This document shows, one piece after another, positions 5,240 through 9,735 of a stretch of 64,000 nucleotides of DNA. Each line of letters begins with the position of its first letter. Position 1 is the first letter of the stretch. A program made the position numbers and the translations under genes. The notes under the pieces are model-generated. The model did not search any database and had not been told where the DNA came from. It worked only from the letters and a program-made list of their open reading frames with translations. Source of the stretch: Cryomorphaceae bacterium (GTDB taxonomy: Bacteria; Bacteroidota; Bacteroidia; Flavobacteriales; Schleiferiaceae); assembly GCA_021298655.1 (NCBI GenBank), contig JAJTFK010000005.1, positions 1-64,000 on the forward strand, in the 5' to 3' direction.

Positions 5240-6202
5240 ATGGAAGCCCTCGTCCTAAAATCAACCGGAAGCTGGTACCGCCTGCAGTTTGCCGACGGAA
5301 CCCAGGCCGACGCCCGCTTGCGCGGTGCGCTTCGGCTTGCGGGGAGCCGCGCGACCAACCCGGTTGCGGTGGGGGACCGCGTGGAGGCCGATCCCGAATC
5401 GGAGGGGCGCTGGGCCATCACCTCGGTGCACGAACGCCGCAACCACCTGGTGCGCAAGTCGGTTAACCTGTCGCGCAAGTCCCAGGTGATCGCTGCCAAC
5501 ATCGACCAAGCGGTGCTGATTGCGACCGTGGCCGAACCCGTCACCCTTTACGGGTTTATGGACCGCTTTTTGGCGACCGCTGAGGCCTACCGAATCCCGA
5601 CCGTAATTGCCTTCAATAAAGTGGACGCGCTCGATGAGGCGGGCGAGGCGGAACTGGCCTACCGCGAGGCAGCCTACGGCCAGGCGGGCTACCGTACCCT
5701 AAGGGTTTCGGCCGAGACGGGCGAGGGGCTGGAGGCCCTTCGCGACGTGCTGCGCGCAAAGGTTTCGCTCTTCAGCGGCCACAGCGGAGTAGGCAAGAGC
5801 AGCCTGGCGAACCGCCTTCAGCCCGGCCTCGACCTGCGCACGGGGGCCATCAGTTCGGCCCACGGTCAGGGCCAGCACACCACCACCTTTGCCGAGATGC
5901 ATCCGCTGGATTTGGGCGGATTCCTCATTGACACCCCAGGAATCCGCGGATTTGGGCTGGTCGACATGGAGCGCGAAGAGATCAGCCATTATTTTCCGGA
6001 GCTGTTTGCGCTGGCGGCCGGCTGCCGGTTCAGCAGCTGCCTGCACGCCGACGAGCCGGGTTGCGCGGTGCGCACGGCCTACGAGGCGAACAAGCTGGCC
6101 CCGACCCGCTACGAAAGCTACCTCAGCATGCTCGCGGGCGAAGACGAAGACGACCCCTACCGCCACGGGGCTTTTAAGGACCTCAAAAGCCGTACGCGAT
6201 GA
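5240..6202 (+). CDS. rsgA: Ribosome small-subunit GTPase RsgA
   Basis: A 320-residue circularly permuted GTPase that checks late 30S maturation. An N-terminal OB-fold is followed by G4 FNKVD, then G1 GHSGVGKSS near residue 180 and G3 DTPG (order G4-G1-G3 is the family hallmark). A C-terminal zinc-binding region shows C-x4-C-x-H-x5-C spacing (GCRFSSCLHADEPGC). The length is typical. It is the first gene of a tight run: its stop overlaps the dtd start (ATGA), and dtd overlaps the next gene the same way. Confidence 0.96.
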   Translation: MEALVLKSTGSWYRLQFADGTQADARLRGALRLAGSRATNPVAVGDRVEADPESEGRWAITSVHERRNHLVRKSVNLSRKSQVIAANIDQAVLIATVAEPVTLYGFMDRFLATAEAYRIPTVIAFNKVDALDEAGEAELAYREAAYGQAGYRTLRVSAETGEGLEALRDVLRAKVSLFSGHSGVGKSSLANRLQPGLDLRTGAISSAHGQGQHTTTFAEMHPLDLGGFLIDTPGIRGFGLVDMEREEISHYFPELFALAAGCRFSSCLHADEPGCAVRTAYEANKLAPTRYESYLSMLAGEDEDDPYRHGAFKDLKSRTR

Positions 6203-6651
6203 GGGTGGTGGTCCAGCGGGTGCTCGAAGCGAGCGTGTCGATTGACGGCAAGCTCCACAGCCGCATCGGGCCGGGCCTGCTCGTGCTGGCCGGCTGGGAA
6301 GAAGCCGATACGTCCGAAGACAACGCCTGGATAGCACAAAAAATCAGTAAAATGCGGCTGTTCCCCGACGCCGAAGGGGTCATGAACCGCTCGGTGGTTG
6401 AGGCCGGCGGGGAGCTCTTGGTGGTCAGCCAGTTTACGCTGCACGCGTCGACCAAGAAGGGCAACCGTCCGAGTTACTTCAAGGCGGCGCACCCGCGGAT
6501 TTCGGTTCCGCTGTACGAAGACTTTCTCGACGTGCTTTGGAACGAGGCCAACCTGCCCGTGAAGTCGGGGGTGTTTGGCGCCGACATGAGGGTTGCGCTG
6601 GTCAACGACGGCCCCGTTACGATTACGATGGATTCTAAAAACAAGGAATGA
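6199..6651 (+). CDS. dtd: D-aminoacyl-tRNA deacylase
   Basis: A 150-residue enzyme that removes D-amino acids mischarged on tRNA. Family signatures are visible: MRVVVQRVLEASVSIDG at the N-terminus, the cross-subunit motif SQFTLHAST near residue 77, and the NDGPVTI motif near the C-terminus (GP motifs contact the D-amino acid). The length is typical. ATGA overlaps with rsgA upstream and the MazG-like gene downstream imply translational coupling in a translation-quality operon. Confidence 0.96.
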   Translation: MRVVVQRVLEASVSIDGKLHSRIGPGLLVLAGWEEADTSEDNAWIAQKISKMRLFPDAEGVMNRSVVEAGGELLVVSQFTLHASTKKGNRPSYFKAAHPRISVPLYEDFLDVLWNEANLPVKSGVFGADMRVALVNDGPVTITMDSKNKE

Positions 6652-7058: not shown

Positions 7059-8243
7059 ATGATGCGTGCGGATTTGTACGAACACCCCGACTACTACCTG
7101 ATGGACGAGCTCCTTACCGAGGAGCACAAAATGGTGCGCGAAGCGACCCGCGAGTGGGTCAAGCGCGACGTGACGCCGGTCATCGAGGACTACGCCCAGC
7201 GCGCAGAGTTCCCGAAGCACCTGGTCAAGGGCCTGGCTGAAGTGGGCGCATTCGGTCCCTACATTCCCGCGGAGTACGGCGGCGCGGGCCTCGACCAAAT
7301 TTCCTACGGCCTGATGATGATGGAAATCGAGCGCGGCGACAGCGGAATCCGCTCGACCTGCTCGGTGCAGAGCTCGCTGGTGATGTACCCCATCTACGCC
7401 TACGGCAACGAGGAGCAGCGCCGCAAGTACCTTCCTAAGCTCGCCAACGGCGAGTGGCTGGGCAGCTTCGGTTTGACCGAGCCCAACTTCGGCTCAAATC
7501 CGGGCGGCATGGTGACCCACATCAAGGACATGGGCGACCACTACCTGCTCAACGGAGCCAAGATGTGGATTTCGAACGCGCCCTTCTGCGACGTGGCCGT
7601 GGTCTGGGCCAAAGACGAGTCCGGCCGCATTCAGGGCGTCATTGTGGAGCGCGGAATGGAGGGCTTCACTACCCCCGAAACCCACAACAAGTGGTCGCTG
7701 CGTGCTTCAGCCACCGGCGAGCTCGTGTTTGACAACGTGAAGGTCCCTAAGGCCAACCTGCTGCCCAACAAGTCGGGCCTCGGGGCTCCGCTGGGCTGCT
7801 TGGATTCGGCGCGCTACGGCATCGCCTGGGGCGCTTTGGGCGCAGCCATGGACTGCTACGACACGGCGCTGCGCTACAGCAAGGAGCGCATTCAGTTTGA
7901 CCGCCCCATCGGTGGATTCCAGCTGCAGCAAAAGAAGTTGGCCGAGATGATCACTGAGATCACGAAGGCTCAGTTGCTGACGCTGCGCCTTGGCCAGCTC
8001 AAGAACGAAGGCCGCGCCACCACTGCCATGATTTCGATGGCCAAGCGCAACAACGTAGCCATGGCCCTGGACATTGCCCGCGAAGCCCGCCAAATGCTGG
8101 GCGGAATGGGCATTACCGGCGACTACCCCATCATGCGCCACATGATGAACCTCGAGTCGGTGGTGACCTATGAGGGTACCCACGACATTCACCTGCTCAT
8201 CACCGGCATGGACGTAACCGGCCTTAACGCATTTAAGTCGTGA
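7059..8243 (+). CDS. gcdH: Acyl-CoA dehydrogenase, glutaryl-CoA dehydrogenase type
   Basis: A 394-residue FAD enzyme of the acyl-CoA dehydrogenase family. Sequence features match glutaryl-CoA dehydrogenase closely: GSFGLTEPNFGSNPGGM, WISNAPFCDVAVVWAK, SLRASATGELVFDNV, CLDSARYGIAWGALGAA, and the catalytic Glu in VTYEGTHDIH near the C-terminus. It would oxidise and decarboxylate glutaryl-CoA to crotonyl-CoA in Lys/Trp degradation, although substrate is inferred by similarity. The frame is open to 7020, but the -7 box at 7028-7035 and the usual N-terminus favour 7059 (7062 is an alternative). The small lipoprotein gene overlaps its stop by GTGA. Confidence 0.9.
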   Translation: MMRADLYEHPDYYLMDELLTEEHKMVREATREWVKRDVTPVIEDYAQRAEFPKHLVKGLAEVGAFGPYIPAEYGGAGLDQISYGLMMMEIERGDSGIRSTCSVQSSLVMYPIYAYGNEEQRRKYLPKLANGEWLGSFGLTEPNFGSNPGGMVTHIKDMGDHYLLNGAKMWISNAPFCDVAVVWAKDESGRIQGVIVERGMEGFTTPETHNKWSLRASATGELVFDNVKVPKANLLPNKSGLGAPLGCLDSARYGIAWGALGAAMDCYDTALRYSKERIQFDRPIGGFQLQQKKLAEMITEITKAQLLTLRLGQLKNEGRATTAMISMAKRNNVAMALDIAREARQMLGGMGITGDYPIMRHMMNLESVVTYEGTHDIHLLITGMDVTGLNAFKS

Positions 8244-8500
8244 AGAAGTTCCTTCGTTTTTCAGCCCTCGCACTGGGTTCTGCCGCGCTTTTGGTGGCCT
8301 GTGAAGTAGAGAATACCTGCCTGGAGTGCGAAGCATCTCAGGTGACGACGATTCCCGGCGAGCAGCCGGTCACGGTGCCGATTGGTCCGCTTGAATTGTG
8401 CGGAACCGAAGTGGATTCCGTACTCGCGGGCCCCTTCACCCAAACCCTAGATATGGGTGGCGTGACGGCGACGCAGGTGACGACCTGGACTTGCCAGTAG
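8240..8500 (+). CDS. Small predicted lipoprotein
   Basis: An 86-residue protein with a lipoprotein signal peptide: MKKFLRF, then a hydrophobic segment ending in the lipobox LVAC at residue 21. The mature part is short, Thr/Val-rich and has four further cysteines (CLEC, LCG, TCQ at the C-terminus). I do not recognise a family or function. It starts at GTG overlapping the dehydrogenase stop (GTGA), so it depends on that transcript. The repeat cluster begins 12 bases after its stop. Confidence 0.7.
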   Translation: MKKFLRFSALALGSAALLVACEVENTCLECEASQVTTIPGEQPVTVPIGPLELCGTEVDSVLAGPFTQTLDMGGVTATQVTTWTCQ

Positions 8501-8511
8501 CTCAGCTTGGT

Positions 8512-8615
8512 GCTCGACCTGCCACGGTCTTCGCACCAAGCTTCGCTCATTGATCTGTTCGGGGCTCGACCTGCCACGGTCTTCGCACCAAGCTTCGCTC
8601 ATTGATTTGTTCGGT
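8512..8615. repeat. Tandem 52-bp direct repeat (two units)
   Basis: Units 8512-8563 and 8564-8615 are identical at 50 of 52 positions. Each begins with the core GCTCGACCTGCCACGGTCTT and continues through TCGCACC. A third, diverged copy follows at about 8616-8652. Confidence 0.9.
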
Positions 8616-8722
8616 TCGGGACCTGATGCGGTCTGAGCATCAATCGATGCTTCTTTTGTTCGCTAACCTTCGAGCTACGAACTGCGCGCCTGCGTAGGCG
8701 GTTGCACCAAAGTAAAGTGGAG
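8616..8722. other. Spacer between the two repeat blocks
   Basis: No gene is supported here. It holds a diverged copy of the core and the sequence GGCGGTTGCACC (8697-8708), which recurs as AGCGGTTGCACC near 8773-8784. Confidence 0.6.
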
Positions 8723-8866
8723 TTCGGTGCGAAGACCGTGGCAGGTCGAGCAACGAACTACGCGCCTTCGTCAGCGGTTGCACCGACTTCGGGTTTCTGG
8801 TATTCAATGAAAAGTTGAGCGTAATTCGGTGCGAAGACCGTGGCAGGTCGAGCAACGAACTACGCG
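8723..8866. repeat. Inverted copies of the same repeat core
   Basis: The reverse complement of the 26-bp core occurs at 8726-8751 and 8828-8853, 102 bp apart, each flanked by shared sequence (TTCG before, AACGAACTACGCG after). The two forward copies follow the plus-strand gene and the two inverted copies follow the minus-strand gene, so a single-stranded transcript could fold into long hairpins. The last copy ends inside the methyltransferase stop region. Confidence 0.9.
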
Positions 8867-9735
8867 TTCAACCGAGCTACGGTGCCCAACGGCAGCACCT
8901 TGCCAAACGAGTCGGCCACGGCGAGCTCGAGCAGTTCGGGCTCGCGCTTGAAGTGCTGGCTGATGAGCGTGTGGGCGACCACGGCGCTCAGGCCCATGCT
9001 GTACAGGTTGAGGGCGAGGAATCCGCCCGGCGCAAGCAGGGCCGCGCAGTCGCGCAGTAGGTCGTCGATTTGCTCTTCGAGCACCCATTTTTCGCCGGCG
9101 GGTCCGCGGCCGTAGGCCGGAGGATCCAGCAAAATGCCCTGGTAGGTCTTGCCGCGCTTGACTTCGCGGCGCACAAAGGCGGCGGCGTCTTCGACCACCC
9201 AGCGAATTCCGTCGAGGCCGCTGGCGTCCATGTTGCGGCGGCCCCAATCGACCACCTTGCGGACCGAGTCCACGTGCGTAGTGTCGGCGCCGGCGGCGCG
9301 GGCAGCTAGGCTGGCTCCGCCCGTGTAGGCAAAGAGGTTGAGCACTTTTGAGTCGGTTCCGGTGACGGCCACTTGGTCAAAAATCCATTCCCAGTTGGTC
9401 GCCTGCTCGGGAAAGATTCCGAGGTGCTTAAAGGCCGTGCGCTCCAGGTCAAAATGAAGCTGGGTTCCGCGCAGGTCGTAGGTCAGGGGCCATTGAGCGG
9501 CGGTTCCGGGCTTGAGCGACCAGTCGCCCGACTCGGGATTTTGCTTGGACCGTGTGAAGTGGGCGTCGGCGCGCTTCGACCATTCGGCGGGCGAAAGAGA
9601 AGGCGTCCACACCGCTTGGGGCTCCGGGCGCCACAGGGTTTGGCGGCCAAAGCGCTCGAGCTTGGCGAAGTTGCCGCTGTCGATCAGTTCGTAGTCGGTC
9701 CAGGGCGCAACGGCCACGTCGATGCGCAGGCTCAT
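8860..9735 (-). CDS. Class I SAM-dependent (rRNA-type) methyltransferase
   Basis: A 291-residue methyltransferase resembling the catalytic part of the RlmI/RlmK group. SAM-binding motif I is VLNLFAYTGGASLAA near residue 132, an acidic motif II follows (THVDSVRK), and the catalytic-type motif is LLDPPAYGRGP near residue 204. The N-terminal 100 residues are an extra beta-rich region; no PUA domain is evident. The likely substrate is an rRNA base, but this is inferred. Its start overlaps the stop of the radical SAM gene (ATGA), so the two are made together. The 3' end lies inside the repeat cluster. Confidence 0.8.
   Translation of the reverse strand: MSLRIDVAVAPWTDYELIDSGNFAKLERFGRQTLWRPEPQAVWTPSLSPAEWSKRADAHFTRSKQNPESGDWSLKPGTAAQWPLTYDLRGTQLHFDLERTAFKHLGIFPEQATNWEWIFDQVAVTGTDSKVLNLFAYTGGASLAARAAGADTTHVDSVRKVVDWGRRNMDASGLDGIRWVVEDAAAFVRREVKRGKTYQGILLDPPAYGRGPAGEKWVLEEQIDDLLRDCAALLAPGGFLALNLYSMGLSAVVAHTLISQHFKREPELLELAVADSFGKVLPLGTVARLNA

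Follow-up and report, generated by a model that had tools for sequence, protein, structure and literature searches.

A cluster of direct and inverted hairpin copies between convergent genes of a Cryomorphaceae bacterium: probable local multiplication of a conserved gene-end hairpin

The window, i.e. the whole stretch of 64,000 nucleotides that was analysed, contains a gene for a small lipoprotein of 86 amino acids (8240-8500, plus strand, identified as an open reading frame; stop codon TAG at 8498-8500) and, facing it, a gene for a SAM-dependent methyltransferase (8860-9735, minus strand, identified as an open reading frame and by its match to Pfam PF10672). As described in the original prediction, the two genes are convergent, and the gap between them holds four exact copies of a 26-bp core, GCTCGACCTGCCACGGTCTTCGCACC: two in forward orientation at 8512-8537 and 8564-8589, and two, as reverse complements, at 8726-8751 and 8828-8853. 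In every copy, the core forms the interior of an imperfectly palindromic hairpin, with an outer stem of 10 bp followed by an internal loop (2 by 3 nt), an inner stem of 4 bp and a loop of 6 nt. The first forward hairpin, c1 (8504-8542, plus strand), has a perfect outer stem and begins about 4 nt past the lipoprotein stop codon, at the 3' side of this gene. The second one, c2 (8556-8594), forms 7 of the 10 outer pairs, its left arm being supplied by the spacer end. On the minus strand, i1 (8721-8759) has a compensated outer stem (AGTTCG/CGAACT), and i2 (8823-8861), which has an extended stem, overlaps the stop codon of the methyltransferase gene; a T-rich stretch lies immediately past the i2 stem.

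The repeats extend beyond the cores. The forward copies appear as a direct repeat pair of 52 nt (8502/8554, 92% identity), and the best register identifies them as a 52-bp tandem duplication on the plus strand with a first unit at 8512-8563 and a second unit at 8564-8615 (50 of 52 positions identical), the latter including the core of c2. The inverted copies form a direct repeat pair of 56 nt (8709/8811, 91% identity), and forward and inverted copies are related as inverted repeat pairs of 43-46 nt with 84-87% identity. The tandem units are followed by a diverged unit d (8616-8665, plus strand) in which positions 8635-8662 form a terminator-like hairpin with a T-run. The diverged copy claimed earlier within this unit (8616-8641) is weak over 26 nt, since it differs from the core at 9 of 26 positions and four other 26-mers of the window match with 8-9 mismatches; if unit and spacer are aligned in register with the second tandem unit, however, the similarity exceeds that of 100 out of 100 shuffled sequences. 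We also found a part-copy e of the inverted unit that has lost the core and that had not been noticed before (8670-8708, minus strand, 39 nt, 87% identity to 8746-8784). In a 464-kb sample corresponding to 29% of the genome, the cluster is the sole place with exact inverted repeats of at least 20 nt within 600 bp, and it is thus far beyond chance.

Seven related species (G001, G004, G007, G010, G017, G019 and G020) carry a single orthologous hairpin in the place of c1, and only the species studied here has four copies. In each of the eight species whose lipoprotein gene is intact, the hairpin follows the stop codon at a distance of 4-5 nt, and in G004, G017, G019 and G020 the coding end of the methyltransferase gene lies about 45-55 nt beyond it. 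The ortholog hairpins fold strongly (z -2.5 to -5.9), and their outer stem has a mean pairwise identity of 98.7% as compared to 58% at the third codon positions of the lipoprotein gene, so that the hairpin must be under selection; the sequence just downstream is 62% identical. Among the species, the 6-nt loop region varies more (79% identity). The outer stem is conserved in sequence among the orthologs and shows no covariation: pairs that are changed on both sides occur in the inverted paralogs only. Orthologs of the lipoprotein gene are present in 8 of the 22 genomes of the genus, and G006 retains a remnant of the gene (L061, G006:C14, around 6100-6300) from which the hairpin has been lost as well. 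Since hairpin and lipoprotein gene are kept together and were lost together, the element goes with the gene. Judged by this pattern of conservation, the hairpin is a selected non-coding element that accompanies the lipoprotein gene. The lipoprotein itself (window 8240-8500) is confined to a part of the genus, and at the family level it had zero matches in Pfam and NCBIfam.

Outside of this locus, the core could not be found. The absence of further copies from the window that had been reported holds for the 1.6-Mb genome as a whole (97% complete): there is no further copy at up to three mismatches, and a BLAST search revealed none above chance. Among 60 relatives, strong matches were obtained in the same genus only, at one place per genome. 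A covariance model found the hairpin once per genome in the seven other species with E values below 1e-19 and detected four matches here; its extra matches (E 0.07-0.8) shared no convincing common hairpin sequence. Searching all GTDB species with a degenerate core pattern yielded 61 stretches: five of them (L070, L071, L074, L119 and L124) are the known relatives, and the remaining ones, from unrelated lineages, were taken as a group to be chance matches. A phage or plasmid origin was dismissed as there is no similar DNA in phage and plasmid collections or in viral contigs, and a known RNA family was likewise discarded, the best Rfam match having an E value of 1.5, below the gathering scores.

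These data bear directly on the idea that the repeats are a REP- or MITE-like mobile family mobilised by a RAYT or some other transposase, one of the possibilities raised in the original prediction. The copies do resemble REP/BIME elements (PMC3733652) as short imperfect palindromes behind genes in tandem and inverted arrangement, and GTAG precedes c1, i1 and i2, though not c2. At c1 and i2, however, the stop codons lie inside this GTAG, and the present case differs from REP/BIME elements in being limited to one locus with neither a genome-wide family nor a RAYT: the related species have their single copy always at the same locus, and the domain of RAYT-type transposases (Y1_Tnp, PF01797) was detected in 0 of 22 genomes of the genus as compared to 5 of 14 control genomes. 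As neither dispersed copies in this genome nor a RAYT in those of the genus could be found, we reject a mobile family, which is almost certainly the wrong explanation. The lack of other copies in the genome, one half of what had been named beforehand as speaking against the original interpretation, is thus what we observed, but the related species do carry one in the same place. It is also quite improbable that the copies are sites of a site-specific recombinase, with strand exchange keeping the core identical and the segment between the c and i copies inverting. Identical cores with differing flanks, short arms flanking a 6-nt centre whose sequence differs between the species, and the inserted genes that the intergenic site holds in G007 and G010 would fit such a site. 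On the other hand, the genome encodes only one tyrosine recombinase domain, in a frame of 308 aa on a different contig, it lacks serine recombinases, and the region contains no promoter-like site. Nor does a further copy of the site close off the distal end of the inserted DNA in G007 or G010, and nothing therefore suggests a cassette mechanism. Sites resembling integron attC or pdif were rejected for the corresponding reasons, i.e. only one Xer-like frame and no second site around these insertions, and the lack of a strand-skew switch at the locus argues against a chromosomal dif site.

More weight, though still well short of an even chance, has to be given to the idea that a protein or a small RNA binds the ancestral hairpin in a sequence-specific manner, on the lipoprotein mRNA or on the DNA, and that the multiplication of the hairpin was a neutral accident. 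This would account for the conservation of the stem sequence itself, beyond its pairing and without covariation, and for the lack of a T-run behind the hairpin, whereas the strong palindromic fold in every ortholog, the position right after the stop codon that is typical of 3'-end hairpins (PMC8355165) and the lack of a match to any known RNA family point in the other direction. Finally, the four-copy count rests on one assembly of this species, a draft genome, and assembly errors are known to include inverted duplications. An artefact is nevertheless very improbable: the flanks differ from copy to copy and are consistent within each of them, there are compensating changes, the contig in which the locus lies is 126 kb long, and the estimated contamination of the genome is 0.04%. 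The four copies may also be a population polymorphism.

On balance, we favour the idea that a 3'-end hairpin conserved at the level of the genus has multiplied locally in this one species, and that the resulting cluster serves both genes. The ancestral state would have been one quasi-palindromic hairpin 4-5 nt past the lipoprotein stop codon. Since the element is palindromic, the hairpin would be present in the transcripts of both strands, i.e. also in any transcript coming in from the convergent methyltransferase gene about 50 nt away. A 52-bp tandem duplication would then have given rise to c2; indeed, a left arm derived from the spacer is what would be expected for a tandem duplication with a breakpoint inside the hairpin. 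Inverted copying, most likely by polymerase template switching at the hairpin, together with homogenisation of the core would have produced i1 and i2, and i2 would thereby have been placed directly at the stop codon of the methyltransferase gene.

Several features of the copies are consistent with this scenario. Wherever the inverted copies differ from c1, the change falls outside a core of 27 nt (P about 0.001 and 0.0001 for a random distribution of the changes). The loop is part of this core; it varies among the species but is identical across the four copies, and this points to recent copying or conversion, which would explain the identity of the core better than selection. The inverted copies have kept 9 of the 10 outer pairs despite 5-6 changed arm bases, whereas about 6 would be expected (P about 0.02-0.03, a test based on few changes in copies that are not independent of each other). 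They share the altered bases of c2 at positions 3 and 5 of the left arm and in addition carry matching changes in their right arm, by which C-G has become T-A and T-A has become C-G, whereas c2 has the two altered bases without the partner changes. Thus, c2 appears to be the expected intermediate on the way to the compensated inverted copies. The compensating stem changes together with the uncompensated half in c2 suggest template switching at a quasi-palindrome as the copying route. Template switching has been proposed to yield compensated stems and inverted hairpin interiors (PMC8794818). The present copies resemble such mutations in their compensated stem changes and in the inverted interior between the arms; they differ in that complete hairpins were added at distances of 50-100 bp, whereas such mutations alter the inside of one hairpin. 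This link, as well as the copying route as a whole and the suggested order of the events, is inferred from the sequence pattern. A more far-reaching version, in which the quasi-palindrome is a hotspot that drives its own duplication and inversion as well as recurrent insertion and that provided the neighbouring gene with a hairpin in a single template-switch step, is doubtful.

What might be the function of the hairpins? Typically, a 3'-end element takes the form of a strong, conserved hairpin that follows a stop codon by a few nucleotides, and the most likely function is that of a 3'-end hairpin in termination or exonuclease protection, for both of the facing genes. The original prediction of bidirectional gene-end hairpins is the best remaining reading; it is plausible and in part supported, because the elements abut both stop codons, mostly fold strongly and derive from an ancestral copy that is under selection, but the T-run is missing from this ancestral copy. 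The individual copies differ: c1 folds with a z score of -4.1 and i2 with -4.5 on the strand of the methyltransferase gene, i1 beats shuffled sequences clearly only as plus-strand sequence and not on the methyltransferase strand, and the fold of c2 is no better than that of shuffled sequences. Behind c1 and c2, there are 4 T residues in 10 nt and no T-run. Several hairpins behind other genes of this genome, in contrast, have clear T-runs about 20-30 nt past the stop codon, and classic intrinsic termination therefore appears weakly supported for the ancestral hairpin. The canonical anatomy, a GC-rich stem followed directly by a T-run, was not seen beyond chance: a scan identified a single terminator-like site with a T-run, the hairpin at 8635-8652, as compared to 0.9 sites expected in shuffled sequences. 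Given that c1 lacks a T-run, mRNA 3'-end protection or factor-aided termination would be as likely as classic termination. In 13 genomes, clusters of hairpins that lie within 80 nt of stop codons and need no U-tract have been reported to coincide with termination sites determined by RNA-seq (PMC8355165). The hairpins described here resemble those factor-independent terminators in being strong, near the stop codon and several in a row, and a U-tract was not strictly required in that study; what sets them apart is a stem sequence conserved across species and the repetition of one hairpin sequence in both orientations. It had also been noted that the copies on each strand are able to pair into long hairpins, and the predicted folds agree with this: in read-through transcripts of either strand, the c copies can pair with the i copies to give long duplexes (z -12 and -14). 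These duplexes of about 45 bp could be cut by RNase III, but their weight in vivo is uncertain because the local hairpins would form first in the cell.

The cluster thus seems to be a mostly ordinary case in which a conserved 3' hairpin without a match in Rfam has multiplied locally, and it reveals no new system. It provides a single-locus example of a gene-end hairpin that was apparently copied and re-fitted for the opposite gene, with seven sister species that preserve the ancestral state and an apparent intermediate that has survived in the cluster, and it documents a conserved 3' hairpin that is tied to an orphan lipoprotein.

The gap between the two convergent genes has received unrelated genes in two of the related species. 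In G007 (L058:1703-2757), a mobile mystery protein A/B pair (HTH plus Fic domain) is located behind the hairpin. In the closest sister species, G010 (L057:469-1610), the gap contains two adjacent minus-strand genes in AT-richer DNA; they have no Pfam match and are perhaps related to each other. Two further repeats were encountered elsewhere: a degenerate, coding-like tandem repeat with a spacing of 42 bp (L142:8871-8996) and a perfect 18-bp inverted repeat with a loop of 3 nt (L149:4212-4250).
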